A program made the position numbers and the translations under genes. A DNA stretch of 64,000 bases from Plumapathes pennacea. Taxonomy: Eukaryota; Cnidaria; Anthozoa; Antipatharia; Myriopathidae. Numbering within the stretch: position 1 is the stretch's first letter; every line of letters begins with the position of its first letter. The notes below the pieces were generated by a model. The model was not told where the DNA came from and made no database searches. It was given only the letters and a program-made list of their open reading frames with translations. This document shows, piece after piece, positions 346-28,830 of this stretch. The stretch spans positions 27,083,759 through 27,147,758 of the forward strand of contig OZ038462.1 of NCBI GenBank assembly GCA_964036295.1. The letters run 5' to 3'.

Positions 346-418
346 CAATGCGATCGTATTTGTCACTGATACATGCAGCTAAAGGCAATATAGATTATCA
401 CTGTCTACTCTGACTGAC

Positions 419-719
419 CTTTCTTGTCTGTTTTTGCTGAGTCATGGTGCTCGAGCTGTTGAACAATATCACTCCGATAGATCGCTCGGAGGACTCCAAT
501 CAGAAAAGACATATCATCGACGGTCAGATAGCCACGAATCTGTAACTCGGAGATGAGTTCGTTCGCTGCCATGTTTTTGCTAGCATCGACCATGCCGACC
601 AACAGAAAGCGTATTCTGCACACATCTTCCTGTCTGAGGTCTCTCGATACCGAAAGCAACAGCTCTCGAGTTTGCAACTGTGAGCCACGCTCGGCCATCG
701 TCCGTTCTTGTATTTCCAA
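419..719 (-). CDS. death-effector-domain exon of a partial gene (third DED locus)
   Basis: The exon encodes about 100 residues that align with the first DED of the two NLR genes at 13.5 and 21.4 kb. Shared features are the LLLSVSRDLRQED-type helix, the RIRFLLV core, the MAANELISEL helix and a final RxDI motif. Translation can start at 719 or at a second Met at 698. The frame ends at a good donor, AAAG followed by GTCAGT, with GT on the minus strand at 418-417. This leaves phase 1, the same phase as the DED exons of the two complete genes. The rest of the gene would lie to the left of the window. It may be a third NLR on the opposite strand, a free-standing DED adaptor, or an orphan exon. Domain call firm; gene identity unknown. 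Confidence 0.6.
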
Positions 720-826: not shown

Positions 827-3143
827 TGTACCGGGAAAATTCTCTGATTAACAAAGAAAAAGAGAAACTCTGGACTACGGAAACTGGAAAGATGAACACG
901 GGAATAGCACAAAAAAGACATATTTCGGTTGTCCAGTGTCCCCAATCAGCTAGTAATGATTTCAAAAGACTTATACTTAAAAAAGTTATCTGGTAACAAT
1001 AACATACACATGGTACAATAGTCTCTCGAAGTTTCTCAATGTTCTCCTTCTCACCCTCACCTACTATTTTTTAGATACTCGTGACAACACGTTCCGCTGA
1101 ATCCCGACACCCCAGTGCGTAGCGATTTGAAATACTTTCGGCTTCGCAAAGCAACAGGCGGAAAATTTGCGTCTGTTTTCGCAGGCTAAGCGGCATGTTG
1201 CACAAAAACCAGTCACGTACACATGAGGCAATTTGTCGCGGGGTCACTGAAACATGTCACCTCTTGTAACAGGACCTTATAACTATATCTCTCACAGACA
1301 AAATAAGACAAGATAATTAAGATATAATAAAGATATATAGCCCAACACCGCCAGCCCAGCCTAGCCCACAACACCCGACCCCACTCCAATGAGTAAAGCC
1401 ACGCATGCAACCCACTCGAGCACAGTTCCATCAACATGCAATGAAGCTTTACGGGAATATACAGGAGCTACAAAATTCTGCCAAAATCTTAGACCGTGTT
1501 CCGGCATGGAGTTCAAAGCTAATTAGCTCAAGCAGAAACCCAAAGTTGTGATACGAAAAAATCTAAAATCCGTGTATGTGACTCAAAACGTTCGCAGTAG
1601 TATAGGCATTAACAGATGTTTTGATTCGGCTGCTATCACACTATGAGGCAAATATGACTTAGCAAATACCTCCACTGAATATATAACCTGATGATGAGCT
1701 CGAATCACCGATCTTTGTTGAATCAATATCATATAGGTATTTGAGCTATTTGCATTTAATGATGACTCAAATTAAATATTGTTCACAAGGGTGAAGTGGT
1801 ATGCAAATAAGAGTCATCACAACGGACAATTAACTGTGAGCTTTGTGGTTCAGTGCACTGAATCTATATATTATGCAAAGGATCAATAGAAAGATCGCTT
1901 TAGTCAGTGTACGTACGTACGTTAACTTTTAACAGTTAAATATCTCCTCTCCTTTCCGAGGAAAAACGCGGTAACGCTGAGCAGGTGGAAACAGCGGTAT
2001 AAAGGGTCAAGGTACATTTTCTTGTGTTTTTCTTTTTTTTGTTGTTCGGCAATTTTGTTGAAATTCTATTCCCCTCTAACTTATGGAATCTTTGCATGCG
2101 TTAGCCCAGCGTCGGTTCGAAAAACCGACCCGACGCTAAAAAGGGCTCGGCCTTGTCAAACCGATCAATGTCAAGCCTAACTAATGAAGTAACTCAAAGA
2201 ATGTAATTGACAAGTGAACCACATGCACAAATTTGTCTCGAGCGAGATACATTTTTCATACGCCTCTCGAGAATATCATCGGGCTGACAAGAAAATATCT
2301 CCGAGTTTATACAGTACGGTCTGTATGTTCAGTTAGCCGAAGCGCCGAAATATTATCAACTCGAGCTAAATATCGTTATTGTTAGCACCGACTGTAATGT
2401 GCTTTATCATTTTTAAAATAAGTTGATTTAGGTATTAATTTCGTTTGATTGCTGACGTGTTCACAAATGGAGTGCAACCACAGTTACCGCAGTTGAATAT
2501 GTCATCGTTGATTCAGTAGAATAAAACGGCAGAAAAAGCCAAGAGAACCATTACGCAAGTCTGACGAATAATTGAAGCGATTAACGGCTCAGAGGTGAAA
2601 TGGTGTGGATTTGAATGCACGTAAGCGGCAAAGTGCCCCTTGAATTCGGTTGACTCATGAAAACAGTAGTGTTCGCTCTGGTAAATTATGTGCACCACAT
2701 GTAGTATAAGAGACTGCTTCTTTCGACGCATTTTTTTAACCCTTCAAGTCCTAGCAATGCTCAAAATGCAACTTCTCCTTACCACCTCAGAGCAGGAACA
2801 TGTAGTGCAGTATGGAGACCTTAGCATCTGATCATGAATGAATGGTGAGGAGAATTTGTATTTAAAAACTCAGGACCTAAAGGGTCTGAGAAAACCATGG
2901 AGATAAAGCCTAGAAACGGTGCCAAATTTCAAGCCTTTAGAACATTTTCCCCCTTGCGTGGGACACGTTCGCTATTATTGGTTTGCGATCAACCCCTGGA
3001 GACTCAGAATACAAAAAAACCGTGACTACCGTCGGTTTTTAAGATTTGTTAGAGACGTGATATGTTCTGTTTCTTTTTACTCTCGTTTACTGACAGGAAC
3101 CTTGTTTCTTGGAGCCTAAACACGCAACCATCAATTCATTAAC
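827..3143. other. intergenic, upstream of the NRPS
   Basis: No convincing gene in 2.3 kb. A short hairpin-like sequence with CGACGCT arms lies near 2108-2140. A TTAACCCTTCAAGTCC sequence at 2736 opens a worn member of the dispersed TTAA-ended MITE family, running to about 2892. A TACTGACAG acceptor-like site at about 3097 precedes the NRPS start, so the 3098-3143 stretch may be the last 5' untranslated exon. Confidence 0.5.
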
Positions 3144-6100
3144 ATGGCCGAATCCCCGGTAAATCAGTTTACTCCACTTTCTCCGTCAGAAGAAAGATTT
3201 TACCATCAGGCGAAAATCTATCCGGAATCAGGAGCTTTCAACGAGAGAAAAGCAATCGTCATTCGAGGTCCACTGAACATCGAAGCTCTTCAGAAAAGTA
3301 TCAACACCGTTGTCGCTCGACACGAGGCATTACGCGCGCATGTTCAGATTGGAGAAGACACCGGAAAGGATTGTCTGTGTATTCAATCAAAACTCGAGTT
3401 TTCCCTAACTGTTGTCGATGTCGAGACCGAGATTTCCCAGCAAGAGAGAGTTTATTTATGGCAACTCTGCAGTGAGGAAGTGGCTCTTCCTTTCGACTGC
3501 ACGTCGCCTCCGCTGTTTCGAATGAAGCTCTTCCGAGTTTCGGAAAATGAGCACGTGCTTGCTATGAGCATGCATCACATGATCTCCGACGGTGATCCGA
3601 GCTTCCGAATTATCCTTCGAGAGCTGTCGACCTTCTACGAGTACTTCTCGGGCGTGACAAATGAGAGCCCGAGCCTTACGACGCCTGTACCTCGCTCCAA
3701 GTTACAGAGCTCGGCGCACGCGAATGTAGAATTTTGGAGAAAGACCTTGGAAAACTCAGAGGGACATGTAAATCTCACCTGGAAATCGTCAACGCAGGAG
3801 TCTCAAGATTTCAAGGGTGGGACTATTCGTGCTACTTTGTGTCAAGACACGAGGGAGGCTGTTTCGTCAATCTGTCAGCAAGTTGGAGTAGCGGAAGCCA
3901 AGCCCGTGGTTTTAGCTCTGTTCCAGTGCGTTCTCGCCAGGCTTATTGGCCAACGTGACATAAGTGTCGGCATACCTGTGTTCTGTCGTGACACCACAGA
4001 TCACGTGAGGGAAACTCTGGGTTACTATGGCAATGTCATTGTCGTTAGAACATTGATCGACCCGATGGAAACCTTCCAAGATTGTGTTCTCAACGTGCAG
4101 GATTTCCTGAAAACGGCGAAGCCTTACGAGCGCGTGCCATTTCAGGAAATAGTGAAAGCGCTGTTCCCTGATTGGAGGAGTCGCTGGAATACCCCCTTCT
4201 TTAACGTATTGTTTGTTTTGGACGAGGTGTCGGATCATCACGTGACTAGCGGCCAGACCTCCTTCGAGCTCACAGACGTCGATCTTGGCCAGGTTCCTTA
4301 TGACGTCATACTCACTGTGCGCGCTCCAGAAACAGGCGCGCTGAAAGTCGTACTGGAGTACAGACGCGATCGATTGACAGACACCTTTGCGAGCTCGATT
4401 TTGGAGTGCTTCGAGAATTTCACCCTAGAAGTTGCGAAGCAAGTTCAACAGAGAATTAACGCTATCAAGCTGATGCCTGTAGAGAAAGCACGTTCCGCCT
4501 TACTCTCCCTAAACCATGGTGTTAATGTTTCATATCCAAGGGATAAAGCGGTACATGAAGTTTTCGCAGAACAGGTGTCACGCACACCTGGCTCTCCTGC
4601 CGTGACCGACTGTCGCGCAATAACACTGACGTATCGCGAGCTTGAGAACCAGTCAAACCGGTTATGCCGCCACCTTCTGTCTGTCAACAGAAAGAAGCAA
4701 GTCGCAGTTGGGATTCTGATGGAGCGATCTCTGGATTTCGTTGTGGCCGTTCTAGCGGTGTTGAAGTCAGGAGGAATTTATGTTCCTTTGGAGCCTGGAC
4801 TACCTTTGACCCGCCTTTCGTTGTTTGTGAAGAAGTCTGGTATGTCAATCCTCCTATCACAGAGGACCCTCAAGCCGTGTGCAGAAAGGCTCATGTTAGC
4901 GGTTCCTGAGCTCGTCAGCATCGTACCAGAAGAGCTGAAAAGTCTCCCTGACCCGGAATGTCGGTTGGAGCAGCCATGCGCAGTACAGGTTCAACCGGAA
5001 GAACTCGCCTACATCATGTTTACATCTGGTTCAACTGGCGAACCCAAAGCCGTCGAAATCCCACACCGAGCAATCGTCCGACTGACGAAGAGTACGAAAT
5101 GTGTCAAGTTTGATGACACCACTACTTCGCTTCTTCATTCACCGCTAACATTCGATGCGAGCACCTTTGAGCTGTGGGGGCCATTATGTAATGGCGGCCA
5201 GATTGTCATCGCCCCACCGGGAAAGCTCTCCGCCAGTGAGCTCTCCAGTTTCTCTTCAAAACAGGGTGTCAACCTGGTGTTCTTTACGTCAGGGATCTTC
5301 AACATCATGATCGATTTTCATCCTGAAAATCTGCATTCAATCCGACAACTTGTGACGGGTGGAGACGTGATGTGCCCTCGGCGAGCTGCTAAATCCGTGA
5401 AGGTCCTGCCGCCGCATTGTACGATCACCAACGGCTACGGTCCAACCGAGTGCACCACTTTCTCTTCGTTCTACAGCGTTTCAGAGTCAATCTCACCCAG
5501 GGATAGCGTACCCATAGGTGGACCACTGGATAACACTCGCTTGTACGTTTTGGGCGAGGATATGTCCCCGGTACCTCTCGAAGCAATAGGAATCTTATTC
5601 ATCGGCGGTGATGGCCTTGCAAGAGGCTACAGACCTCGTGATGACGTCAGCAATAAGAAGTTTGTCCCAGCGCCTGGACTCATCACCTCAGTTTTCCCTG
5701 ACGAGACAATGCTTTTCAGGACGGACGACCTTGTACGCGTGTCAAGCGATCCCAGTGGCGCTGAAGAACTTGTCGTTCAATTTCTTGGCCGTCGCGATAC
5801 TCAGGTTAAAGTGTCTGGCATTCGGGTGGAGCTGGGTGAAGTGGAGGGCCACGTACGTTCCCACAACGCTGTGCATGACGCTGTTGTCGTCCAAGAAGGT
5901 GAGGCGGCTGGGCAGAAGATTCTCGTCTGTTACGCTGTACTCCTTGGCGACATCGAAAGCTCGGAGATGAGAGAGTTCCTGAAGAGGAAGCTACCGGAAT
6001 ACATGATTCCTTCTAAGTTTGTTAGTGTCGGTGAGATACCCCTGACAGCGAACGGCAAGGTCGCCCGACGAAACTTGACACACCTGACGTTAGAAGCGCA

Positions 6101-8294
6101 GCCTCGTTTCCAGTTCACAGGTCCCGGATCTGCCAGCCCGCAAAGCTCCCTGGAACGCTGCGTGGCCTCGTTGTGGTGCGAGGTCCTTGACATGAAAGGC
6201 GCGATGCCGAATATGGAGGACAATTTCTTTAGCATTGGTGGCCATTCGCTCCTCGCTCAGCTGGCTGTGGCCAGGATATCTAGTCAACTTGGAGTGGAGA
6301 TCCCCCTTCTGGCAATCTTTAATCACCCGACTTTGTCATCTTTCGTCAAGTACATCGAGCAAGCAAGGGGCACACTTTCACAGCTGCAGCCCGCCTTGTT
6401 ATCCTCTTCGAGTTCAGCCCCGAGCGAGGAAACGATGTGTTACAAGATTTCACAGCAGCAGGAGGAATACATCGAGGTGTACAAGAGTGGCAAACACACT
6501 TCCGAGTACCATATCAGTGCCGTGTTCACCATGCCGGGTAAAATCCGCGCTGAGCCTCTGCAGCAATGCATTGACCTCCTGGTGAAACAACACGATATTT
6601 TACGTGCTGTTTATAAAACAGCAGAGTCAGGAGAGACATTGCAAGTCATCACACCGACAGATAAAGTCAAGAATCTCGTAAAAGAGGAAACAATTTATTC
6701 GGGCATCGAGGGAGGCTGCGTGAACGAGGCGAACAAGCGAGCAACAGAAGACATTTTCGTCGAGTTTGACTTCGAGAACGGGCCGCCGTTACGCTGCTCC
6801 GTCTACTACAGAGAAGATGACGACAACACCACCGTCGTCCTTTCCTGTAATCACATGGTAATGGACGACGTAGCGCTGTGGATATTTGCTCGCGAATTGA
6901 TGGCCTACTACAGGGATGTCACAGCAAACAGACCAGTACCCTTATCAGTGAAGAGGCAGCAATACACCACCTTCATACGCACGCAAAACGTCACGTCTGC
7001 CTCGAAAGAATTCCGCACAAGCAAGGACTTCTGGGAACGCGAGCTGACGTCACTACCCAAACCGCCGCTGTTTCCACTGTCGACACCAGTTTCCAGGAGT
7101 GAAGGGAGAAAGCTGATTAGAGTCGTAACTCTCCCAGTCAGTCAGCTAAAGAAAGCTTCTGCTTTGCTGCAAGTCTCGCCATTTGCCATTCTCCTGGCGG
7201 CCAACTACGTTTCCGTGTACCACTTGACAGGGTCCTCGGATTTCAGCATCAGTTTCCCCGTAGCTGCCCGCGATGTCTGGAACCAGCGTACTATCGGTAC
7301 CTTTGCCAGGCGCATTGCTGTTCGGCTTAGCTCAGCGTCGAGGGACGTAAGCCTTGACGTCATGGTCCGAGATATTGCGAAGAGTCTGGTACGGGTTTTG
7401 GAACATCAGGATTATCCAATGCCAAGAGGGAATCACGAGCAGTTGGTGTCCATGTTCAAGTTAAGTTACATTGACCTGAGCACGCAGTATCTTCCAGAAG
7501 GCGCGGTATTTCACTGCCTCCCCTTAAACTCGCTCACGGAAAATCTCGTCCTGTTCCTGGACGCCTTTGCCGATGAGACCGACGTACACATGAAGATCTG
7601 CTATCTGGAGGGAGTGCTAGATGACGTCACAATTGACGCACTTGTAGTTGTCATGAATATGCTGCTGCGTTGTCTGTCGTTGGAGCCGAGCATGTGCTTA
7701 AACAAGCTGTTATCGGAAGACGGAAAGATCGCAGACACGCGGGAAGATTTCTCGATGTTTATCGCCCGGGATGATGGTCCTGTCTATTCCATTGGCTGTG
7801 TAGCAGAGCTGTTTGTGAGAGTGAAAGACGCCTGTGGCAGGACACACTTGCTGGGACGGTACGACAGCAAGGAGGACGATACCATTAGCTTGATGCAGCA
7901 TACCTCCCGACAAGTTGAGCTAAACCAGCATATTGTCGACTTGGGTTTCATAGAAAGCATTGCCCTCTCGTTAGATCAAGTGCAAGACTGCGTTGCCATG
8001 GTGACGAAGGCGGGCCTTGTGGTTTTCGTCCAGGCCACTTCCAAGACAGTCGCTGGTGCGCTGCGTTCTGGTGTCCTCACGTCAGTCTTTGACGAGCTTC
8101 CTGGTTCGCAACTGGTTCGACTGTCACATATCCCCTTAACTCCAACTGGTGCTGTCGATGAAGAGGCCCTCCACAGACTTCACGAGGAAGAAGCGGGCAG
8201 TGATCACAGCGAAACTTTCAGCCCGAGGTGTGTTCATTTTTATTGCTACGCTCAAAATGGTAATTCTCCCGACCACCTTACAGGAAATTACTGA
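3144..8294 (+). CDS. non-ribosomal peptide synthetase, C-A-T-C with partial second A
   Basis: A 1716-residue multidomain enzyme in one uninterrupted frame; the ATG has A at -3 and G at +4. Residues 8-430 form a condensation domain: LSPSEERFY, RHEALRA and an intact MHHMISDG with catalytic His145. Residues 455-980 form an adenylation domain: TYRELENQS; YIMFTSGSTGEPK with Lys635 followed by Ala rather than Gly; FDASTFELW with Asp671; NGYGPTE at 763-769; FRTDDL (Asp for the usual Gly); GRRDTQVKVSG; NGK with Lys972. Residues 1000-1075 form a carrier domain whose FSIGGHSLL places the phosphopantetheine on Ser1035. A second condensation domain, about 1105-1520, has NHMVMDD at 1236-1242, keeping the second His. 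Residues 1545-1690 resemble only the C-terminal subdomain of an A domain. There is no thioesterase or reductase. Expected role: activate one amino acid, acylate it, and pass it to another amine. The product is unknown. Confidence 0.9.
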   Translation: MAESPVNQFTPLSPSEERFYHQAKIYPESGAFNERKAIVIRGPLNIEALQKSINTVVARHEALRAHVQIGEDTGKDCLCIQSKLEFSLTVVDVETEISQQERVYLWQLCSEEVALPFDCTSPPLFRMKLFRVSENEHVLAMSMHHMISDGDPSFRIILRELSTFYEYFSGVTNESPSLTTPVPRSKLQSSAHANVEFWRKTLENSEGHVNLTWKSSTQESQDFKGGTIRATLCQDTREAVSSICQQVGVAEAKPVVLALFQCVLARLIGQRDISVGIPVFCRDTTDHVRETLGYYGNVIVVRTLIDPMETFQDCVLNVQDFLKTAKPYERVPFQEIVKALFPDWRSRWNTPFFNVLFVLDEVSDHHVTSGQTSFELTDVDLGQVPYDVILTVRAPETGALKVVLEYRRDRLTDTFASSILECFENFTLEVAKQVQQRINAIKLMPVEKARSALLSLNHGVNVSYPRDKAVHEVFAEQVSRTPGSPAVTDCRAITLTYRELENQSNRLCRHLLSVNRKKQVAVGILMERSLDFVVAVLAVLKSGGIYVPLEPGLPLTRLSLFVKKSGMSILLSQRTLKPCAERLMLAVPELVSIVPEELKSLPDPECRLEQPCAVQVQPEELAYIMFTSGSTGEPKAVEIPHRAIVRLTKSTKCVKFDDTTTSLLHSPLTFDASTFELWGPLCNGGQIVIAPPGKLSASELSSFSSKQGVNLVFFTSGIFNIMIDFHPENLHSIRQLVTGGDVMCPRRAAKSVKVLPPHCTITNGYGPTECTTFSSFYSVSESISPRDSVPIGGPLDNTRLYVLGEDMSPVPLEAIGILFIGGDGLARGYRPRDDVSNKKFVPAPGLITSVFPDETMLFRTDDLVRVSSDPSGAEELVVQFLGRRDTQVKVSGIRVELGEVEGHVRSHNAVHDAVVVQEGEAAGQKILVCYAVLLGDIESSEMREFLKRKLPEYMIPSKFVSVGEIPLTANGKVARRNLTHLTLEAQPRFQFTGPGSASPQSSLERCVASLWCEVLDMKGAMPNMEDNFFSIGGHSLLAQLAVARISSQLGVEIPLLAIFNHPTLSSFVKYIEQARGTLSQLQPALLSSSSSAPSEETMCYKISQQQEEYIEVYKSGKHTSEYHISAVFTMPGKIRAEPLQQCIDLLVKQHDILRAVYKTAESGETLQVITPTDKVKNLVKEETIYSGIEGGCVNEANKRATEDIFVEFDFENGPPLRCSVYYREDDDNTTVVLSCNHMVMDDVALWIFARELMAYYRDVTANRPVPLSVKRQQYTTFIRTQNVTSASKEFRTSKDFWERELTSLPKPPLFPLSTPVSRSEGRKLIRVVTLPVSQLKKASALLQVSPFAILLAANYVSVYHLTGSSDFSISFPVAARDVWNQRTIGTFARRIAVRLSSASRDVSLDVMVRDIAKSLVRVLEHQDYPMPRGNHEQLVSMFKLSYIDLSTQYLPEGAVFHCLPLNSLTENLVLFLDAFADETDVHMKICYLEGVLDDVTIDALVVVMNMLLRCLSLEPSMCLNKLLSEDGKIADTREDFSMFIARDDGPVYSIGCVAELFVRVKDACGRTHLLGRYDSKEDDTISLMQHTSRQVELNQHIVDLGFIESIALSLDQVQDCVAMVTKAGLVVFVQATSKTVAGALRSGVLTSVFDELPGSQLVRLSHIPLTPTGAVDEEALHRLHEEEAGSDHSETFSPRCVHFYCYAQNGNSPDHLTGNY
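5996..6300 (+). other. NRPS A-domain end and carrier domain with phosphopantetheine serine
   Basis: Marks the part of the synthetase that sets chemistry. Lys972 (6057-6059) is the A10 lysine that contacts substrate carboxyl and adenylate. Ser1035 (6246-6248), inside GGHSLL, is the attachment point for the 4'-phosphopantetheine arm added by an Sfp/AASDHPPT-type transferase. Both residues are present, so the single complete module looks competent. Confidence 0.8.
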
Positions 8295-8563
8295 GTGTGT
8301 TGGTGAGAATTAAAAATTGAATCAGCTTCTGCCCGTTTTCTTTATTGTCTTTTTTTTGTAGCAGAATATTTGTGGATAGTATCCGACAGGAGACACTTGT
8401 GTAAGACCTGACAAAATTTAAAGATAACAGATTGAACAAGCTTTGTGAAAAAGTTTGGTGTTAAAACATTTGGTACCGAAAGGTGACCAGTGGAAATACA
8501 TTCTTCCTTCGTGCTTTTACAGTTGCTTAGATTTGAAACACTTATCTTTTAAAATTCGAAACC
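8295..8563 (+). other. gap between NRPS stop and ketoreductase-like piece
   Basis: AT-rich and non-coding. It follows the TGA that ends the NRPS frame. A possible donor, CCGAG followed by GTGTGT at 8228, sits just before the stop. AG acceptors at 8574 and 8598 would join in frame to the downstream open frame, but both have weak pyrimidine tracts. Whether this gap is an intron or a spacer cannot be settled by eye. Confidence 0.4.
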
Positions 8564-9331
8564 GTGCATTCAAGCGATCGGAAATTAAGACAGCGTAGAG
8601 CTTTTGAGACTCTTAAAAGAAGAACATTTGTCGATTGCATTCATAGAATTCCCGTTCTCCTGAGTAATGGCTGCAACGTGCAGGCGAGTTCCAACACTCA
8701 CCAAACGACTGAAGCTTCACAGGCCGCCCAGAGCGAGACCGGCAACCCGACCCCATCAACAGAAGAATGGGTTTCTTGTAAAATCCGTCATAGATCCCCA
8801 TTTACAAGCAAGCCACTTCTGTATTACCCAAGCAGCACGGGAGACGGCAGCGTCTTGTCAGATCTGGTGACACTGTTGAAAAATCTCCGCTTCACTTGCA
8901 CTGCGGTCGGCGGCAGAGAACACAGGAACGAAGGTGTGACGTCTCCTGAGTTATGCCCTGGTCTTGATGAAACGGTCGCCACTTATATTTCAGCCCACCA
9001 GCCGTCGGAGAAATACGGCGGGAAGGAACGCCATCGCGAGAGCCTGCAAGTGCTAGTCCAGAACGAAGCAAGAAAATGCCGGTTCATTTGTGTCCACATT
9101 GTACCTGAAAATGAGATCCAAGGCTTCCCTCTCTGTCAGGCCGTACATGACGTGTCTGCCAAACCAAACGTCCAAGCTATGGAGGTGCGCATGCCTGAGC
9201 TGGGCAGTAGCAGTCCACAAATACAGGCGGCTCAGCTTGCCACCCTTGTCCGTGAAGTCATTAGTCCACAAAAGGAGAAAGTCGTTGCCTTTCAAGGAGG
9301 TGTGCGTAAAGTACTTCGGCCGAGAATTTGA
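8564..9331 (+). pseudogene. polyketide ketoreductase structural-subdomain-like fragment
   Basis: An open frame of 255 codons whose first in-frame GTG is not a believable start. The last 90 residues carry the pattern of the non-catalytic half of a PKS ketoreductase: a SLQVLVQNEARK helix, a CRFICVHIVPEN strand, a CQAVHDVSAKP turn, AAQLATLVREV, and a closing KVVAFQGGVRKVLRPRI. In intact enzymes this ending leads directly into the catalytic Rossmann domain, and no such domain follows here. An upstream segment, PLLYYPSSTGDGSVLSDLV, may be part of the same fold. It lies 269 bp after the NRPS stop in another frame. It is either a downstream exon of an NRPS-KR hybrid or the wreck of a once longer synthetase. 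The assignment rests on motif memory only. Confidence 0.45.
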
Positions 9332-10195
9332 GGGAGCAATTTAGAGAAGTTTACAACGCTCGTTATTATATGGTTTGGGCTCAATTAAGGTCTCAATAAA
9401 GGTTCGCGAGTCTCTCTTGGAAAAAAGTCGTAAATGCTACAATGTAATTTAGTCAATTTATTAGGAATTGGATAAAATTTGTTTTTTAGCAGTTTCGAAT
9501 AAAATTTCCAAAAGGTTTGATTTCCGAACCGGTGGTAAATTTCAAATAAAGCCATAACATCAGATCTACATTCTGCAGTCCACTCCTTTACAACAATATA
9601 TACCGTAATACGTGTATGTACCTTAAATTGTAACGCTGCAAGGATTTTATTCCGAGAAGGACTCCTGAACCTTATTGAGACCTTAAGCTTGTCCTTCAAG
9701 ATTTAGGTGACCAGAAATCAATGTGAGCGTCGATTGGCTTATTGAGCCGAATCTTAATGGGCGTTTAACTGTAGTGTCGGTTTAGGGCTGGCAATATCGC
9801 TGAGAGTAGGACGATGACGTCATACGTTTTAGACGATGACGTCATACTCTTGCACTCCCTTTTAGGCTTGATTACCAGCCGCTGCCTCGGGGAAGTGAGC
9901 CAGACCGGACTCGAGAGAGCGGCGGAAATCGAGCCTAACTCTCTTTGCACTAAGAAATAGAGCAGAATTTTGTTTCATTTAATCCGAAACATGGCCAGGT
10001 TATAAAGCTATTATTTTATTCTAGTAATCTTGGAAAACAACCTTACTAAAGTTCTTGGAAATGATTGCAAAACGCTTCCGATGCTGTGTCTTTTGCGATC
10101 GCACCAAACAGATCTCAAAGATTCCTGGGTCTTGAGCCCCCATCAAGCGGTGAATGTGGATAGCTGATGATAATTGTGGGATCGTAACTATCACC
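9332..10195. other. intergenic; left part of the duplicated segment
   Basis: No gene seen. From about 10000 the sequence (for example around 10060-10130, TTGGAAATGATTG and CTTTTGCGAT) is recognisable again at about 20697-20818. This marks the left edge of the tandem duplication that contains the NLR genes. Confidence 0.6.
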
Positions 10196-10384: not shown

Positions 10385-10491
10385 AACAATTATTCGCCTC
10401 AGTGTCGGTCAATAGCGGTGGATATTTACCTCGCCAAAACGGCTCGGTAAATATCCACCGCTATTCACCTCCACTTCGGCGAATAATTGTT
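10385..10491. mobile_element. fold-back element next to the preceding MITE
   Basis: The outer arms AACAATTATTCGCC and GGCGAATAATTGTT are inverted. An inner pair built on AATAGCGGTGGATATTTACC is inverted around about 10437. The 107-bp unit would fold into a nearly complete hairpin. It starts one base after the end of the preceding MITE. Confidence 0.7.
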
Positions 10492-13404: not shown

Positions 13405-13540
13405 TTGGAGGGTTTTCCCCGAAAATGACGCCATCTGCTCTCGCAGCACGTGATATTTGAAGCGATCTTGAGGCGCGAAATTTGCGGAACGTTGGTTTTC
13501 AGAAGGCCGCTGCCTCCGATCTTCCTGTAAATTACTCCAG
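13405..13540 (+). promoter_or_regulatory. conserved upstream block of NLR copy 1
   Basis: The sequence GATTGGAGGGTTTTCCCCGA, then a GAGGCGCGAAAT motif and AATTACTCCAGATGGCG at the start codon, is repeated before copy 2 at 21223-21377. GATTGG is a CCAAT-type box, and GGGTTTTCCCC resembles a kappa-B-like site. Conservation over an otherwise drifting spacer suggests the proximal promoter and 5' untranslated region. Factor assignments are inference. Confidence 0.45.
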
Positions 13541-16500
13541 ATGGCGGTTTACTCGACAGCAGATCCACTTCGAGTACTTTTGCTTCGATTATCAGACGAA
13601 CTAAGGCCGGAAGATGAGTCAAGAATGCGTTTTTTGTTGGTGGATGTGGTTGATGCTCGCTCGGACATGCGTGCGGCGGAACTCTTCAGTGAACTGAAAT
13701 CTCGCGGTCTTCTGACCGACGATGACTTGTCCTTCGTCAGGAGCCTGCTTGACGCCATTTTACGGAAAGATCTCAGTCTAACAGTGGCTCAATGCTCACG
13801 CGAGGGAATCGTCATGAAAGGTGATGAAATTCCGGCAAAGCTGTGTTTTGGGCAGCGCCACTGATTGCAAGCTGCCGTGGTTTTTCTCCGAATGAACAGA
13901 GCCGTATTTAATATATTTTGAAAGATGTAGCATTGGCGGCAGTGTCCTAAGAATAACGCACGTTTGGCCTTAATATGACTTACCCGGAGTCGAAAGATGG
14001 AGGCGGTCATGCCGTCATGCTCTGACACGCTCATGTTTATAGTCGAATCTGGGCATTATAAAGCTACGAAATATCGGCCATGCTTTTGCTTTTCGATTAA
14101 TTTCGTTTCCAATTTTGTTTATTGTTTCGTGAGGTGATATAAAAAACAGTAGAAATTTGTACTAAAGGCATTTTCAGTTTGACACAATGATATATTGACC
14201 AGTAATTAACGCAACACAGTCACGCCACACAAGTGATGTTTGTCAAAAGCATCGTAAATTGTAAATTACGCAAAGCAAGGACTGTTCTAACTGCACGAAG
14301 ATATGAAGAATCAAAACTGGACAAAACAAAACATGTTGCTTGTGAGAAGAACTATTCCTGTTGACCAAATAACAGGTCCATGATATTCACATGGTTTCAC
14401 TTTCACTGCGGTAGAAGATCATTCTGTATAAATTAACTGAATCCCAGTTTGTATCCGATATACCATTGCATAGCTATATTTCATTACGTCTATACTACAA
14501 CTACTACTAAGAGTGTATTCTTCGCAATTCAACAACACTGAATTACGTCATCGGAAAATATTTTTATGTAATTAACGCTACAAAATGACTAATGTTATTC
14601 TGATTGGTCTTACCTTTAGAGGAACTTTCTCAAAAGTACCCACTCAGCAGCTACAGGAAATTCCTCGTCTCTCTGTCATGTTCTCTTGAAAGCCAAGATG
14701 TCAAAAGGATGACGTTTCTTTGGAATGATACAATATTGCCTCGAACACAGGAGAGTATATCCTCGGCCTTGTTGTTATTCACTGCACTAGAGCAACACGG
14801 CATCATAGGACCACAGAAACTTGAAAACCTAAGGGAGACACTGGATATTATTCCTCGTAAAGATCTAGTGAAAAAATTGGATACATTTGTCTCAGAAGAG
14901 AATGGACAAGGCAACAATAAAGGTAACGTGAAATATGCGACATAACCCTTTCATTTTCAAGATCGAGTGTTCAACTTGAATTTTCTTCTCCCGTTTCTCA
15001 CCAGAGTTATACCACACAGTAAGGAGAACTTGGCTTTTGATAACTTGCCCAGATGAAACCTGATTAAAATATCAATTCTCACTACATTGCGTACACATTT
15101 GGTTTCTTAAAAGAATACTTTTTAGGAGAATCATTCGGTTTAAAGGGTTAAACAGTGCTGGTATGGGGTGGGTGGCTGAGAGAGGAGTCTGTAGTAATGT
15201 GTTTGAGGACCTTGACAGCAAGACCAAAGAATAAACACGACATATTGTTAAACCAACAACAACAACAAAACATACTCGATAAAGTATAGGACCCAACAAT
15301 TGCCAGTCATTGCACAAAACATAAAACTTCATTCCAGTTCAGTAAATGTGCAGGTTTTTGAATCGTGTGAGTTACAACCAATCAGTGTATGGCCTCCCTC
15401 TTCCTAATAGACCACTCACTCCAATATAATTATAGACAAGATAAATGAATTCACTTCAGTTAATCAGATAAATGAATACAAATTATCTTACCATCTAAAT
15501 CTGACATATGCAACACTGACTTGCATAATGAACTGCGGACCAGATATTGTGTGAGGAAGGACGGGCTTTCCGCTTTTATACCAAAACGTCCTGTTTGAAA
15601 CCTCGGTACATATTCCTATAAAATTTATTGACTCGTCTAAATGTTTTTGTCTTATAGTAGTCCCCAGTTCCTTCGGTCTCCGTCATCTCCCTGCTGATTA
15701 CGTGAACAGGTCGTCAGATGTGGAACAAGTGAAGCGACTCTTGCTGTCTGGACAGTCATCTGTGGGTGTCGTGGGAGCGCGTGGTAAAGACGTCGTGGGT
15801 ATCAAAGGCATGGGAGGAATCGGCAAGACAGTTCTAGCTCAAGCTGTATGCTGGGAAATACGTAGCACTCGTCAAGTCATCTGGATCAACGTTGGTCAAA
15901 CGCCTCAGCTACTATCTCTACTAAACATGGTGGCCACCGCTATCAGTGGGAAACAGACGTCTTTCAGTGACAAAGTGAAAGCGCAGGACTGGATCCAGGA
16001 GAACACAGTAGATAAAGACAGCCTTGTTGTGTTAGATGACGTGTGGGACGTAGAGCACGCTTCAGCTTTTGATGTGCTGAGTGGGAACTGCCAGCTTCTC
16101 ATAACAACACGTAACTCAGAAGTGGTGCATGGGCTCCGTGGCTCAGAACTGCACAAACTTGGCGCCTTGAGTAAAGATCAAGCGAGACAACTGCTGGCCA
16201 AGTGTGCTAAGGTAGACTTAAACCGGCTGCCACGAGAAATCAAACTCGTCGTAGAGCAGATCTTAGAAGAATGTGGCGGCTTACCTCTGGCTATAGCGCT
16301 GATTGGTTCAAGTTTGGTGGAGACACAGAATGAACAGGCCTGGAGGGACAGACTAGAGGAGCTGCAAGACGCTGACCTTGAAGGGGTTCGTTCTTGTTTC
16401 CCCAAAGACGTCTACCCCTATGAGCACCTAATGGCTGCCATTGATGTAAGTTTCAAAGCTCTGCCTGAGCAATACAGGACCTGGTATCTAGACCTGGCAG

Positions 16501-19500
16501 TGTTTCCTGAAGATACCGAAATGCCGTCTCACGTCCTGGAAATGATGTGGAACAACGCATCGTTTAATCGTGATGCCAAACAACAAAGAAAACTCCAGAG
16601 ACGCGTGAGGGAGGCACTGAGGTTCCTTGAGAAGCGCTCGATGCTACAAAGTGGAACAACTGAGGGTAGCTATCTGGTCCACGATATATTGCTGGATTAT
16701 TTGCAAGGAAAAATCGCGCATGAGCGTGGAGAGAGTGCATTGAACGACGCACATATCGTTTTACTGGATAGGTACAAGAGCAAGTGTGATGGTGAAGGTT
16801 GGTCGGGAGGACCTAAAGGAGACATGTACTTCTTCAAGAACTTGGCGCACCATCTTTGTGCTGCAGGGCGAACCCATGAACTTGTTCGCGAGCTGAGCAA
16901 CTTTGAGTGGCTGCAGAACAAGCTGGAGGAGACAGACCTTGCCTTCTTGTTGTCAGACTTCACTTCTGTGAAGGAGAAACACAAAGAGCTGGAGTTGATC
17001 CGCTCAGCTCTGGTGTTATCTTCAAATGTCGTCAACCAACGCAAACAGCAACTAGGACCTCAGCTCTTGGGAAGACTTCTAGGTTTCACAAAGTCCGAGA
17101 ACGTTTCTTGTCTGGTGAATCAAATCAAACAGCGTAGCAGTCATTCTGCGCCGAGTTTTGTTCCTGTGAACGCTTGCCTGAGCTATCCTGGCGGACCTCT
17201 GATTCGCACAACTGACAGCCGTAGCCGGACGATCATGGCCATCGTTGTAACCCCAGATCGAAAGAGAATTATCACTGGAGCTACCGATGGAAACATCAAA
17301 GTTTGGGACTTTGACAGTGGCAAGGAACTAAACACTTTAAGTGGTCATACAAAAGTGGTTCACGCTCTTGCTTTGTCCCAGAATGGTCGACTACTTGTGT
17401 CAGGTTCCTTTGATTTGTCTTTGAAAGTGTGGAACATAGATAACATGGAGAACGTCAAGACCATTCACGGCCACAAGGACTGTGTAAATGGAGTTCTGTT
17501 AAGCCCAGACGGTCAACGAATAGTGTCTTGCTCCAAAGATTCCACCATTCAACTTTGGGATCTTGGAAGTGCCACCTGGTTGCACACCTTTAATGGTCAT
17601 GCTGGACCTGTTGATGCTGTTGCCATGGCAGCCAACGGTAATCACGTGGTCTCAGGAAGTGAAGATAGTACCGTTAAACTTTGGAATCTCAACGAATTTA
17701 CTTTGGAGAAGACGTTTCGGGGTCACTCAGGAATCGTTTACACCGTCTGTTTCTCGCCTGATGAGACGCATGTTGTTTCAGGGTCCGAAGATAAAACAGT
17801 AAAAATCTGGGACGTCAGCAGTGACGAACCAGTGCGGTCCCTAACTGGCCATACTGGTTCGATTTACGGGGTTGCCATGACACCAGACGGAAGGAAAGTC
17901 CTTTCTGGTAGTGAAGACATGAGTATACGTGTATGGTGGTTTGATAGCGGCAAAGAGGCATGCATTCTTCAAGGGCATAGTGAGGCTGTGCGCACTGTGA
18001 CTGTCACGGGCAGTATTGCTCTCTCAGGGTCTGAAGACCGCACGTATAAAATGTGGGACTTGGAGTGCAACCAAACCACGCCTCTCTTTGCTGGGCACCG
18101 GAGAAGCATCAATGACGTCGCCATGTCGACAGATGCAAGCATGTGCGTATCTGTGTCTGATGACGGTTTGGTAAAAGTCTGGGATTGTCGCTGTGTTGAC
18201 GAAGTTACCAGTTTAAAAGGGAGCTCTGAAGAAATTTACGCCGCGTCACTTCATCCTCATGGAGCTCTCGTAGCGTTCGGAGGTTTGGATTGCCAGGTAA
18301 AACTCTGGGACATGAAAGGTGAGCAGGAATTGTGCAGCTTCACAGGGCATGATCATCCAATACAAGTGCTCAAGTTCGTCAAAGATGGCGACGTGTTAGT
18401 ATCCGCGTCCAGAGACAACACATTTGCACTATGGGACTGGAAAAACGGATCAAACCTGCGATGGATAAAGGCATCCATTTATCACATCAATGACTTTGTC
18501 CTGGTTGGAGAAGTCCTTCTGGTGTGCAATGGTTACAACAAAGCTTGTTCGATAAGGACAGATACGTTGGACAGTATTGATCCCGCCATTCTCACTGGAC
18601 CCGACAGCCGCCCGTACCCGGCCCAGGTGCGACCCGACGGTTCCTACATCTTCAGTGGAAGCAATCAATTGAGCAGCTTCTTGCGTTCTTGGGTGGTGAA
18701 GACAAGCTTCGAGGTCAGGATTCCGTGCAGTCATCCTGAGAACTCGATGATAACCGCTTTGGCCGTGACTTCCGACGGTCAGGATGTCATCACGTGCTCA
18801 AATCATGGAAGCATCACGAAAGTTCACCTTGAAGATGGGGCGGTTCTTATGAAGTATGCATTCTCTTGCAGAGATGGCTCTTATATCACAGATGTCGTCT
18901 TGATGCCACCCGATGAACAGAACTTTGTAACTTCCGATTTCCTGGGTGACTTGAAGCTTTGGTCAGCTGACGGGTCACCACCAAAAATCTTGCGCAAATG
19001 TGAGGCTGGGGTTGCAGCATTGTGCCTATTGCCTAACGACAGAATTGCAGCCGTTGACGAGAAGGGGAAAATACATTTAATCAGCGTGAAGGAGGTAAGC
19101 CAAGCGGCTGTGATTGACGCCCACAGTGAACCCATCAATGCTCTCGCAGTGCAAGCAGAAGAAGAACAGTTGTTAGCAACTGGGTCAGACGACAAAAGTC
19201 TAAAGATCTGGAAGATCTCTGACTCAAAGAACATTCCTTCGTGTGATTTAGTTCTAGCTGTGACAAACGCTCACCCACACAAAGTCACCGCCCTGTCTTT
19301 CGTCGAGGGATCCAGTTCTTTGATTTCCGGTTCACTGGACAACATTCTTATCCAATGGGATTTGAATGACGGTCACAAAGTCAGAGAATTCTGTTCCACA
19401 AGTTTTGGAGTCAATTGTATCTGGTCCCTGAACGACCAAGTCATCAGCTGTTTCTACGACTCTACCGCAACTGTCTGGTGTCTCTCTGAAGGCATAGAAC

Positions 19501-19871
19501 TGCAAAGAGTTCTGGGTCACCGAGGTCAACACCACGTGTCCAAAGTTTCGCCGGATGGTAAACAAGTATTCTCAGATAGCGTCAATTACACTGTGAAAAG
19601 ATGGAGTTTGAAAGGTAGAGCCCAAACCTTGAGTACATTTCGTGGTCACACAGACGAAGTGATTGCGTTGTGTCTCGCCCCAGACGAACGTCACGTGATC
19701 ACTGGGTCACGTGATAAAACAGTGAAGATGTGGAGAGTCGAGGATAGCGAGTTGCTGAGTGAGTTCTATTTTGAACAAGCCGTTAAAGTCGTGACGTTGA
19801 GTGCTGATGGTAAAATGGCTGCCGTCGGACTTCATAACGGACAACTTTGTTTGTTAAACGTCAAATACTAA
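13541..19871 (+). CDS. NLR copy 1: DED-DED-NB-ARC-WD40 protein, 1598 residues
   Basis: Three exons, all joined in phase 1: 13541-13820, 14620-14922, 15658-19871. Exon 1 is one death-effector domain (RKDL at residues 75-78) and exon 2 a second (RKDL at 173-176). Exon 3 carries NB-ARC: P-loop GMGGIGKT at 245-252, kinase-2 SLVVLDDVWD near 315, LLITTRNSE, CGGLPLA near 402, and a VHD in the winged-helix region. After a helical linker come about 21 WD40 units, ten with clear WD ends (KVWDF, LKVWNI, KLWNL and others). This is the Apaf-1 layout with paired DEDs in place of a CARD, so DED-mediated recruitment of a caspase-8-like or FADD-like partner after ligand-driven oligomerisation is the likely job. 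It is the upstream member of a tandem pair. All motifs are intact. Confidence 0.88.
13821..14619 (+). other. intron 1 of NLR copy 1
   Basis: A 799-bp intron with donor AAAG|GTGATG and acceptor TTACCTTTAG|AG. No mobile element seen. The matching intron in copy 2 is 2394 bp because of a retroelement insertion. Confidence 0.75.
15649..15662 (+). promoter_or_regulatory. TAGTAG tandem splice acceptor of NLR copy 1 exon 3
   Basis: The acceptor reads CTTATAGTAG|TCCCC. Either AG gives an open frame; using the first (exon from 15658) adds one valine. In copy 2 the first AG is changed to AA, so only the second is available, at 24622. This is a NAGNAG-class site. Confidence 0.6.
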
Positions 19872-24300: not shown

Positions 24301-27300
24301 TGGATACATTTGTCTCAGAAGAAAAAGCCTTCCAAGTTTCTCAATGCAACAAAAAAGGTAGCGTAAAAGAAGGACTCTTTGTTGGGAATCGAGAGTTCAA
24401 TGCAAATGCAACATAAGCAAGAAATATTAAGACTTTGATTGAGATGTTGACTGTAAATATTTGAAGTAGAAGCTGGTGGGGTGGGTAAATGCAACACTGG
24501 CTGCCATGTAATGAAATGCAGATCACATAATGTCTGCGGGAGGAGGGCTTCCGGCTTTTATACCAAAACCTCCATCCCTTTATTAATTGTTGACTTGTCT
24601 AAATGTTTTTGTCTTATAATAGTCCCCAGTTCCTTCGGTCTCCGTCATCTCCCTGCTGATTACGTGAACAGGTCGTCAGATGTGGAACAAGTGAAGCGAC
24701 TGTTACTGTCTGGACAGTCATCTGTGGGTGTCGTGGGAGCGCGTGGTAAAGACGTTGTGGGTATCAAAGGCATGGGAGGAATCGGCAAGACAGTTCTAGC
24801 TCAAGCTGTGTGCTGGGAAATATGTAGAACTCGTCAAATCATCTGGATCAACGTGGGTCAAATGCCTCAGTTACTATCTTTACTGAATATGTTGGCCACC
24901 GCTATCAGTGGTAAACAGATGTCTTTCAGCGACAAAGTGAAGGCGCAGAACTGGATCCAGGAGAACACAGTAGATAAAGACAGCCTTGTTGTGTTAGATG
25001 ACGTGTGGGACGTGGAGCACGCTTCAGCTTTTGATGTGCTGAGTGGGAACTGCCAGCTTCTCATAACAACACGTAACTCAGACGTGGTGCATGGGCTCCG
25101 TGGCTCAGAACTGCACAAACTTGGCGCCTTGAGTAAAGACCAAGCGAGACAACTGCTGGCCAAGAGTGCTAAGGTAGACTTAAACCTACTGAAACCAGAA
25201 ATCGAACCCGTCGCAGAGCAGATCTTAAAAGAATGTGGCGGCTTACCTCTAGCTATAGCACTGATTGGTTCAAGTTTGGTGGAGACACTGAATGAACAGG
25301 ACTGGAAGGATAGGTTAGAGGAGCTGCAAGACGCTGACCTTGAAGAAATTCGTTCCTGTTTTCCTAAAGATAGCTACCCTTATGTGCATTTAATGGCTGC
25401 TATTGATGTGAGTTTCAAAGCTCTACCTGAGAAGTACAGGACCTGGTATCTAGACCTGGCAGTGTTTCCTGAAGATACCGAGATACCGTCTCACGTCCTA
25501 CAGATGATGTGGAATGAGGCATCGTGTGATCGTGGCGCCAAACAACAAAGAAAACTCCAGAGGTTGGCGAGGGAGGCACCGAGTTTCCTTGAGAAGCGAT
25601 CGATGCTACAAAGTGGAACAACTGAAGGTGGTTATATGGTTCACGACATACTGATGGATTATTTACAGGGAAAAATCGAAAAGGAGCGTGGAGAGAGTGC
25701 TTTGGAGGACGCACATAACGGTTTACTGAAGAAGTACAAGAACAGGTGTGATGGTGAAGGTTGGTCCGGGGGACCTAAAGGAGACACATACTTCTTCAAG
25801 AACTTGGCGCACCATCTTTGTGCTGCAGGGCGAACCGACGAACTTGTTTGCGAGCTGAGCAACTTTGACTGGCTACAGAACAAGCTGGAAGAGACAGACC
25901 TTGCCTTCTTGTTGTCAGATTTCACCTACGTGAAGGAGAAAGACCAAGAGCTGGAATTGCTCCGCTCAGCTCTGGTGTTGTCTTCAAATGTTGTCAACAA
26001 AAGCAAGCCGCAGCTAGGACCTCAGCTCTTGGGAAGACTTCTAGGTTTCACAAAGTCCGAGAAAGTCTCTTGTCTGGTGAAACAAATCAAACAGCGTAAC
26101 AGTCCTTCTGGACCGAGTTTTGTTCCTATGAACGCTTGCCTGAGCTCTCCTGGCGGACCTCTGATTCGCACAACTGACAGCCGTAGCCGGACAGTCATGG
26201 CCATCGTTGTAACCCCAGATCGAAAGAGAATTATCACTGGAGTGACCGATGGAACCATCAAAGTTTGGGACTTTAATATTGGTAAAGAACTGAACGTTTT
26301 AAATGGTCACACAAAAGTGGTTTACTCTCTTGCTTTGTCCAAGAATGGCCGACTACTTGTGTCAGGTTCCTTTGACTCAACTCTGAAGGTCTGGAACATG
26401 GATACCATGGAGAACGTGAAGACCATTTGCGGCCACAAGGACTGTCTGAAGGGAGTTCTATTTAGTCCAGACAATCATCAGATAGTGTCCTGCTCTAAAG
26501 ATTCCACTATTCAAATTTGGGACATTGAGAGTGGCACTTTACTGCATACCTTCAAAGGCCACACCAGACCAGTTGAAGGCATTGCTTTGACATGCAATGG
26601 AGTTCACTTGATCTCCGCAAGCGCAGATTGCACCGCGAACCTCTGGAATCTCAACACGCTCAGATTAGAGAAGACCTTTCGGGGTCATTCAGGAACCGTT
26701 TACACCGTTTGTTTCTCGCCTGATGAGGAGCATGTTGTTTCGGGATCTGAAGACAAGACTGTTAAAATATGGGACAAAAACACTGGCAAACAAGTTAGGT
26801 CCCTGGCTGGCCATGGAGGTTCAATTTACAGGGTTGCTGTAACACCAGACGGACGGAGGGTCCTTTCGGGCAGCGAAGATATGACTGTACGTGTATGGTG
26901 GTTTCACAGCGGAGAAGAAGCGTGCATTCTACAAGGGCACAATGGGCCGGTACGTACAGTCGTGGTAGCGGGTAACGTTGCAATCTCCGGGGCAGAAGAC
27001 CATACGTACAAACTTTGGAACCTTGAATGCAATCAAACCACGGCTCCCTTTGCGGGGCACGGGAGAGGTATCAATGACGTTGCTGTGAAGTCAGATGCAA
27101 GCATGTGCGTATCGGTGTCTGACGATGGTTTAGTTAAAGTCTGGGATTGTCGCTGTGTTAAGGAAGTTAGTACTTTAGCAGGGCACACAGACGCAATTCA
27201 CGCCGTTTGCCTCGATGCCGATGGAAGGTTTGCAGCATCTGGAGGTTTGGACCTTGAAGTGAAAATCTGGGACCTGAAATGTGGGGAAGAAGTGCGCAGC

Positions 27301-28830
27301 TTGAGAGGGCATGAGTTTCCAGTCCAAGTGCTGAAGTTTTTCCAAGATGGCAACACGTTAATGTCCGCGTCAAAAGACAACACTATTGCGCTGTGGAATT
27401 GGAAGAACGGATCAAAGATGCGCTGGATCAAAGCGCCCATTTATGGCATCAACGACTTTGCTCTCGTGGGAGACTCCATGGTTTTCTGCAATGCGCACAA
27501 CAAAGCATGTACGATCAGCAACAGTGATGCCAATCCCGATGACGCTGAAACCTTCACTGGGCCTGACAGCCGCCCGTACCCTGCGGTACTCCTCCCTGGT
27601 GGCTCTCATATCCTCAGTGGCAGCAACCAATATTGCAACCTCCTGCGCTCCTGGGAATTGACAACCAGTTTCGAGTCAGTGACTTCCAGCGGTCACTCTA
27701 GAGGTTCTTTGATAACCGCTTTGGCCTTATCTTCCGACGGGCAGGATGTCATCACGTGCTCGAATCATGGAAGCATCACAAGAATTCACCTCAAAGATGG
27801 GGCGGTTCTTTCGAACTACGAATTCTCTTGCACAGATGGTTCTTACATCACATCTGTCGTTTTAATACCACCCGACGAAAACAACTTCGTAACTTCCGAT
27901 TCCCTGGGTGACTTGAAGCTTTGGTCAGTTTCCGAGGGATCACCAAGGACCTTGCGAAGATGTGAGGTTGGAGTTTCAGCTGTGCGCTTTTTACCTAACG
28001 ACAGAATTGCAGCCGTTGACGAGAAGGGGAAACTACATTTGATCAGCTTAAAGGAAGTAAGCCAAGCGGCTGTGATTGACAGTCACAGTGAACCCATCAA
28101 TGCTCTTGCAGTGAGAGCAGGAGAACAGTTGTTAGCAACTGGGTCAGACGACAAAAGTCTAAAGATCTGGAAGATCTCTGACAAAAAGGCCATTCCTTCG
28201 TGTGATTTAGTTTTAGCTGTGACAAACGCTCACCCACACAAAGTCACCGCCCTGTCCTTCGTCGAGGGCTCCAGTTCTTTGATTTCCGGTTCACTGGACA
28301 ACATTCTTATCCAGTGGGATTTGAATGACGGTCACAAAGTCAGAGAATTCTGTTCCACAAGTTTTGGAGTCAACTATATCTGGTCCCTGAAGGGCCAAGT
28401 CATCAGCTGTTTCTACGATTCTACCGCAACTGTCTGGTGTCTCTCTGAAGGCAGAGAACTGCAAAGAGTTCTGGGTCACCGAGGTCAACACCACGTGTCC
28501 AAAGTTTCGCCGGATGGTAAGCAGGTATTCTCAGATGGCGCCGATTACACTGTGAAACGCTGGAGCCTGGAAACTAGAGCCCAAACCTTGTGTACGTTTC
28601 GTGGTCACGCGGATGAAGTAATGGCAGTGTGTCTTGCCCCAAACGAACGTCACGTGATCACTGGGTCCCGTGATAAAACAGTGAAGATGTGGAGAGTCGA
28701 AGATGGCCAGTTGCTGAGTGAGTTCTATTTTGAACAAGCCGTTAGAGTGGTGACATTGAGTGCTGATGGTAACATGGCCGCCGTCGGACTTCATAACGGA
28801 CAACTGTGTTTGTTAAACGTCGAATACTAA
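21378..28830 (+). CDS. NLR copy 2: DED-DED-NB-ARC-WD40 protein, 1597 residues
   Basis: Paralogue of the gene at 13541. Exons are 21378-21657, 24052-24357 and 24623-28830, all joined in phase 1. The two DEDs lie in exons 1 and 2. Exon 3 has P-loop GMGGIGKT at 245-252, LVVLDDVWD, LLITTRNSD, CGGLPLA and about 21 WD40 units, so every functional motif of copy 1 is kept. Intron 1 is 2394 bp and holds a broken Gypsy retroelement; intron 2 is only 265 bp (735 in copy 1). The NB-ARC and the last five blades are nearly the same as copy 1, whereas blades 3-4 and several central blades differ at many positions. It probably recognises a different ligand through the same output machinery; that is inference. 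The frame is intact, so it is likely active. Confidence 0.88.
22785..23830 (+). pseudogene. broken Ty3/Gypsy retroelement pol fragment
   Basis: Pieces of reverse transcriptase end and RNase H in several frames with stops: a VPYTGHVLTQDGLKPDP segment near 22890, a TGLGATLMQNGQPV-type RNase H start near 23235, AQIEKDLLAIVFSTKKF near 23320, a VESDHKQLETIFK segment near 23408, and the tether region EEIQRETENDRVMQILKS near 23670. No LTRs were recognised. It lies in intron 1 of NLR copy 2 in sense orientation, is absent from copy 1, and is non-functional. Confidence 0.8.
24358..24622 (+). other. intron 2 of NLR copy 2
   Basis: A 265-bp intron with donor AAAAAG|GTAGCG and acceptor TTATAATAG|TCCCC. 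It is shorter than its 735-bp partner in copy 1, which holds extra sequence including a worn TTAA-family MITE near 15005-15152. Confidence 0.7.

Follow-up and report, generated by a model that had tools for sequence, protein, structure and literature searches.

A conserved, reduced dimodular nonribosomal peptide synthetase gene of probable bacterial ancestry in the genome of the antipatharian Plumapathes pennacea

The stretch of DNA analysed here (the window) comprises 64,000 nucleotides (nt) of the Plumapathes pennacea assembly GCA_964036295.1 (290,015,204 bases in 24 contigs), and corresponds to C1:27083759-27147758, contig C1 being OZ038462.1. Positions 3144-8294 of its forward strand constitute a single open frame of 1716 codons commencing with ATG, and analysis of the encoded protein confirmed that an open frame for a multidomain nonribosomal peptide synthetase (NRPS) is truly present at this locus. 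Pfam recorded two stretches of Condensation (E 2.2e-106 for the whole protein), AMP-binding at residues 474-829, AMP-binding_C at 899-972 and PP-binding at 1007-1071 (E 9.5e-13), while NCBIfam returned the amino acid adenylation domain TIGR01733 with 335.1 bits against a cut-off of 317.4; the top-scoring solved relatives of the protein were linear gramicidin synthetase and other microbial NRPSs. The original prediction, made from the DNA letters, of two condensation (C) domains, one full adenylation (A) domain and one carrier (T/PCP) domain in a single frame was thereby borne out by Pfam matches far above chance.

The protein search proposed together with that prediction, conducted against approximately 5.8 billion proteins, yielded two full-length orthologues located in separate records, one of them a 344-kb contig: P0001 (1715 aa) and P0002 (1728 aa), which are 69% and 68% identical to the window protein, respectively, each with 99% coverage. 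The remaining 118 of the 120 best rows (3064 matches) were NRPSs with identities of 25-34%, those bearing names being bacterial.

Four full-length domains can be assigned on the forward strand. The first condensation domain (C1; 3162..4490, residues 7-449) carries the active-site motif HHMISDG (144-150), present in all three sequences (the window protein and both orthologues). It is followed by the full A domain (4533..6098, residues 464-985), with the pocket code DAFFVGGTFK, Lys635, the pocket Asp671 and the catalytic Lys972, and by the T domain (6150..6368, residues 1003-1075) with Ser1035 within GGHSLL. His144 and His145, Lys635, Lys972 and Ser1035 are all in place and invariant in both orthologues, as had been claimed for His145, both lysines and the serine, and a C1 with its catalytic His, an A domain with Lys and pocket Asp, and a T domain with the pantetheine Ser together make up an NRPS of the C-A-T type; the related expectation of a usable enzyme is accordingly supported, as far as residues can indicate, for C1-A-T. 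In the second condensation domain (C2; 6441..7694, residues 1100-1517) the motif is NHMVMDD (1236-1242), with NHMIMDD in P0001, such that HHxxxDG is intact in none of the three sequences: the second His and the Asp are retained, the first His is replaced by Asn, and the motif Gly is also altered. C2 nevertheless keeps the Arg and Gly whose columns are conserved at 1.00 (rounded) in 137 bacterial C domains, a sample of 450 bacterial C-like domains trimmed by length.

The four-domain order C-A-T-C originally predicted stands for those four domains, but is incomplete, as a core-less second A domain comes after C2. This remnant (A-sub; 7794..8183, forward strand, residues 1551-1680) consists of the C-terminal subdomain only, the A10 lysine being lost (PLTPTGAVD) and the catalytic core absent; a linker of approximately 33 residues (1518-1550) occupies the place of some 400 residues of A core. 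In a BLAST search, residues 1521-1694 aligned with the C-terminal region of A domains from bacteria (lowest bacterial E 5e-8, 121 proteins); hhalign of the tail gave 97.1% (E 6e-11) with the 100 top-ranking sequences out of 280 bacterial A domains; and in a six-frame scan with hidden Markov models (HMMs), residues 1576-1676 matched positions 392-499 of the 499-position A model (E 9.9e-6). Searching the Protein Data Bank (PDB) with the tail returned 13 sequences at E<=1 (0.003-0.69, each weak), which comprise NRPSs and a carrier-domain protein, every one of them with an adenylation domain, five being gramicidin synthetase A entries. Since Pfam reported no A-domain match for this piece, it is regarded as a diverged remnant. 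A complete second module (C, full A, T) is lacking in that only A-model positions 392-499 follow C2, and no second T domain better than E 0.48 was found among the 2139 six-frame segments of the window. Judged from its sequence, the protein is thus a reduced dimodular NRPS of the order C1-A-T-C2-(A-sub).

Identities to P0001 and P0002, respectively, were 70 and 68% for C1, 75 and 72% for A, 81 and 75% for T, 72 and 71% for C2, and 62 and 65% for A-sub. The remnant has therefore been retained in both orthologues at 62-65% identity, versus 21-38% in the two longer linkers (1076-1099, 21 and 38%; 1518-1550, 38 and 34%), the short linker of 14 residues at 450-463 giving 64 and 50%. When P0001 and P0002 are compared with one another, identity is 51% in A-sub, as against 62-70% in the full domains. 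The open frames, taken together with this domain-by-domain pattern of identity, point to purifying selection, and the best reading of these comparisons is of a conserved NRPS gene now under selection.

The gene probably extends past 8294, with a second conserved coding exon spliced on. The three orthologous proteins cease to resemble each other at residue ~1694, where the window DNA reads AG|GTGTGT, a phase 2 position with its GT at 8228-8229; the ends of P0001 (GGPK, end) and P0002 (GPRYV) would fit a donor of the same phase, as deduced from the proteins. With this putative donor, exon 1 spans 3144..8227 (1694 codons and two further nucleotides), the frame staying open as far as the stop at 8292-8294. 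Further downstream lies an open frame, 8564-9331, that has no early ATG and is 51% identical over 88% to P0121 (14 members), its single match among 510 candidates. The likely intron is given as 8228..8574 with an uncertain acceptor, among AGs up to about 8760; nine in-phase acceptors would start the downstream exon at 8575, 8590, 8599, 8620, 8623, 8647, 8665, 8689 or 8734. The candidate terminal coding exon, 8575..9331, is thus a conserved open frame with no recognisable domain, and a poly(A) signal AATAAA (9395..9400) begins 64 nt past its stop. All of these features lie on the forward strand. Description of the locus as intronless holds insofar as 5.08 kb lie in one exon, and fails insofar as this downstream frame is likely to be spliced on from the phase 2 donor at 8228.

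A suggestion made by eye from PLLYYPSSTGDGSVLSDLVTLL that the downstream exon represents a thioesterase (TE) was dropped (hhalign probability 1.1%, E 0.049); the TE HMM gave no match at this exon at E<=5, and none better than E 1.6 within the window. Pfam gave no match to the downstream exon at E<=10, and a PDB profile search a single match at E 0.91. With P0121, Pfam returned YgbA_NO (E 0.00083, 20.2 bits where the cut-off is 25) and Reovirus_L2_4th (E 0.16), both below cut-off and judged to be chance.

At the ten customary pocket positions of the A domain, the window protein and P0001 both read DAFFVGGTFK and P0002 reads DALWLGGTFK. Among published codes, DAFWLGGTFK is a Val code (PMC9113097), DALWMGGTFK is a valine code (PMC3943440), and DAFFLGVTFK serves positions holding Ile or Val (PMC2533009). 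The best reading of the predicted pocket is therefore Val or Ile as the A-domain substrate. In a FastTree analysis of 538 A domains the orthologues fell within mostly Val-type sets of 12 rows (support 0.67) and 24 rows (0.88). An 80-row tree drawn from these (3 orthologues, 36 of 90 Val-type rows and 41 of 445 others) placed the orthologues as a clade (Shimodaira-Hasegawa-like approximate likelihood ratio test, SH-aLRT, 100) inside a 59-row set (SH-aLRT 99) holding all 3 orthologue rows, all 36 Val-type rows and 20 of the 41 others; the exact neighbour of the orthologues within that set is not resolved by the tree, and their stem amounts to 1.13 changes per column. The separate A and C trees called for at the outset have thus delivered in part, favouring a bacterial ancestry for the A domain among Val/Ile-type rows and leaving C1 and C2 deep and unplaced. 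Pattern scans for a bacterial donor, each using two short patterns and hence weak as evidence, found no relative of C2 plus tail among 113 stretches; for the whole protein, 2 of 166 stretches were related, both remotely (23 and 25% identity), and these are NRPSs of Lachnospiraceae associated with deer.

The contig carrying the gene spans 42.4 Mb. Codon use of the open frame correlates at 0.83 and 0.86 with that of the two NB-ARC/WD40 frames nearby and at 0.66 with an ABC transporter exon; GC at third codon positions is 0.57 compared to 0.50-0.53 in neighbours, overall GC 0.51 compared to 0.48-0.49, and the CpG ratio 0.99 compared to 0.72-0.84. The frame is close to its neighbours in codon use and composition, slightly richer, and broadly host-like. 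Within the genome, and within the reach of the search, the NRPS protein is single-copy: of 14 candidates scored three matched, namely itself, a 30% identical A-domain stretch at C1:30058118, and one weak match. Within the 9.9 kb scanned around C1:30058118 the A domain is divided into seven or more pieces and the T domain into two; an intron-rich animal A-T gene was observed here on the same chromosome, approximately 3 Mb from the window (L012 2061-8757, reverse strand). Because this resident A-T gene is split, while the NRPS has 5.08 kb in one exon, the missing introns suit a horizontal gain. The early caution that lack of introns is merely suggestive proved well founded, given that long unbroken frames also occur in NB-ARC/WD40 and C-like acyltransferase genes. 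The latter were encountered among seven further loci at which open frames of 480-605 aa partially match the condensation domain: six (C9:263145 and 264141; C1:10698820, 15913608 and 15959639; C8:1737709; L003-L008) read as unbroken frames of stand-alone single-exon C-like acyltransferases, and the seventh, an open frame with a partial match, lies at C1:15917618.

Neighbouring death effector domain (DED) and NB-ARC/WD40 frames lie at 414-695 (reverse strand), 13535-13861, 15702-19871 and 24481-28830 (all forward). Pfam, run on eight window pieces, identified DED in two neighbouring frames and NB-ARC plus WD40 in one, the second NB-ARC/WD40 frame being named by similarity; frame pieces of an SDR gene and of the ABC transporter gene are also present in the window. 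The neighbourhood of the NRPS gene, with its DED frames and two NB-ARC/WD40 genes, is innate-immunity-like. At 10385-10491 there is a palindrome with 51-nt arms (86% complementary) and a 5-nt loop that resembles a small inverted-repeat transposable element. With regard to retroposition, also raised at the outset, a search for repeats flanking the NRPS exon gave one imperfect 39-nt direct repeat (77%; 2754-2792 and 8245-8283) that may be due to chance, and a scan of 2800-3200 restricted to bacterial promoter and terminator patterns gave nothing.

Taking these various data together, the locus is best explained, with a probability of roughly 0.7, as a gene of the animal's nuclear genome that encodes a reduced dimodular NRPS whose domains would be bacterial-derived by an old horizontal gain, either direct or via another eukaryote. 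The original suggestion of horizontal gain is favoured by the bacterial Val/Ile-type placement of the A domain and by the missing introns, set against a resident A-T gene that lies in pieces. A number of points weigh against this account. In the larger FastTree run the 12-row and 24-row sets had support of just 0.67 and 0.88; in the 80-row tree, nearness was the basis for choosing 30 of the 36 Val-type rows, the 59-row set also contains 20 non-Val-type A domains, the window row was flagged for unusual composition, and the tree was midpoint-rooted beside two long-branched fragment rows, nesting of the A domain requiring a root outside the 59-row set. C1 and C2 branch deep on long branches and do not group together, C1 being without specific kin and C2 joining one bacterial C domain (P0067, support 0.90), possibly through a long-branch effect. 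Neither the A nor the C tree includes fungal, protist or other animal NRPSs, and for the A tree this leaves the direct donor and the timing open. C2 might be inactive, since its HHxxxDG motif is without the initial His and it also lacks an Arg conserved at 95% among the bacterial rows. The intron was deduced from protein ends and phase, not from RNA: an ATTAAA at 8309, just past the stop at 8294, is so placed that an unspliced transcript could use it, and splicing to the strong-looking acceptor at 8362/8365 would terminate the protein ~13 residues further on, so that shorter transcripts using either are possible. Structure models were too poor to use (mean predicted local distance difference test score 37.5 for the exon-2 protein and 36.3 for C2 plus tail).

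Of the alternatives, an old animal inheritance, in which an NRPS present early in animals was lost in most lineages and the bacterial likeness reflects deep shared ancestry, would accord with the scatter of NRPSs across animal phyla, not all of which can be transfers according to the authors of PMC10531068, and with the long orthologue stem of 1.13 changes per column, which suggests a gene old in its lineage; it is rendered unlikely by the position of the A domain within a set of bacterial Val/Ile-type A domains, and by the intron-rich structure of the genome's other A-T gene, to which it is only 30% identical. Contamination or an assembly join, by which a symbiont or bacterial contig became spliced into the chromosome, would draw some support from the microbes that cnidarian samples often carry, and the somewhat elevated GC (0.51) and CpG ratio (0.99) of the frame, plus the lower codon correlation with the ABC transporter exon (0.66), could be cited in its favour. 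Against this, codon use is near that of the NB-ARC/WD40 genes (0.83, 0.86), the locus is flanked by DED and NB-ARC/WD40 genes within a contig of 42.4 Mb, the orthologues occur in separate records, one on a 344-kb contig, and the exon ends are splice-compatible, making such an origin highly improbable.

There is little likelihood that the gene is a decaying relic, a C1-A-T NRPS-like protein with its second half breaking down and an enzyme that makes nothing: the loss of the second A core and T, the change of the first His of C2 to Asn, an A-sub without the A10 lysine and the 51% identity of that subdomain between P0001 and P0002, below the 62-70% of full domains, are all as decay would predict, but three sequences share the same truncation at near-equal length without stops, C2 is conserved like A (71-72% versus 72-75%), and A-sub stands above the longer linkers. 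Comparably improbable is identity with the fourth, NRPS-like enzyme of the pathway to shinorine, a mycosporine-like amino acid, that has been reported in the anthozoans Acropora and Nematostella. The NRPS-like enzyme of shinorine synthesis is an A-T-TE protein without C domains that has serine as its substrate. The pocket here is Val/Ile-like, not that for serine; two C domains are present, as against the A-T-TE of the cyanobacterial enzyme; and one Pfam model found no dehydroquinate synthase match in the genome, a search by which exon-split genes can be missed. Papers on anthozoan shinorine report an NRPS-like homologue, which may or may not be this gene.

The steps beyond domain content can be sketched as follows, by extrapolation from the domains. 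Ser1035 would be phosphopantetheinylated by a putative host phosphopantetheinyl transferase, and the A domain would adenylate valine or isoleucine and load it on to T. C1 would then join the Val/Ile to an acyl or aminoacyl donor from another protein or a CoA thioester, a donor that would come from elsewhere, since no partner module was found in the window or in 8.76 kb upstream. C2 would release the product from T by handing it to an acceptor with an amine or hydroxyl group supplied in trans; in the absence of the second A core and T, its own module could no longer activate such an acceptor. A-sub probably persists as a platform, structural or for docking, that serves C2, and the downstream exon was probably retained as a C-terminal extension. 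As product, one would expect a small amide or ester of an acyl- or aminoacyl-valine. A more speculative proposal, to be entertained only tentatively, is that a once-dimodular bacterial NRPS has been remodelled such that the second A domain lost its catalytic core while its lid subdomain, held by selection, docks, the terminal C domain acts as a trans-acting transferase, and a host-encoded valyl or isoleucyl conjugate serves signalling or defence.

Few animal C-domain NRPSs have a known product, and a conserved single-copy NRPS with a simple predicted substrate would offer a tractable route to a metabolite that is host-made, not symbiont-made; the gene may also bear on which member of the holobiont makes which compound. 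Retention of A-sub without its core would show an assembly line trimmed to a stand-alone conjugating enzyme after capture.

Compared with known systems, the protein shares its C, A and T types and pocket-code class with bacterial Val/Ile-type di- and multimodular NRPSs, the named relatives including myxobacteria, Streptomyces and cyanobacteria, the ten best-scoring bacterial A domains being 39-42% identical to its full A domain, whereas C2 is just 23-26% identical to the ten best-scoring bacterial C domains. Unlike these bacterial NRPSs, it is without a second A core and a second T, and its gene has largely host-like codons and a likely intron. A further comparison is offered by Ebony and the Schistosoma NRPS (Sm-NRPS), which possess A and T domains. 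They conjugate beta-alanine to monoamines, whereas the window protein has two C domains, one of them before A, and a Val/Ile-type pocket. Both are animal genes, and their products, like the proposed C2, release the aminoacyl group from T by coupling it to a partner supplied in trans (PMC11214079, PMC10531068); Ebony and the schistosome and planarian NRPSs are described in PMC11214079 as animal enzymes conjugating an amino acid to an amine. The available portion of PMC10531068, a survey of 1059 genomes for NRPSs, considers C-domain NRPSs rare in animals and assigns cnidarian A domains found with Sm-NRPS to the Sm-NRPS/Ebony clade; in that portion Cnidaria appear once in the overall list and once as Sm-NRPS/Ebony clade, and are absent from the NRPS-holding phyla named in the discussion. 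The NRPSs of bdelloid rotifers, nematodes (nemamide) and springtails are likewise C-domain animal NRPSs, some of them likely to be horizontal in origin, and the accessible parts of the accounts concerned (PMC11258130, PMC8363725, PMC10531068) make no mention of a conserved core-less A domain. Unlike the window protein, they are in the main multimodular or polyketide synthase hybrids. Among the matches listed in a literature search of open-access titles and abstract starts, none describes the present architecture in a cnidarian. NRPSs as such are already known in animals.
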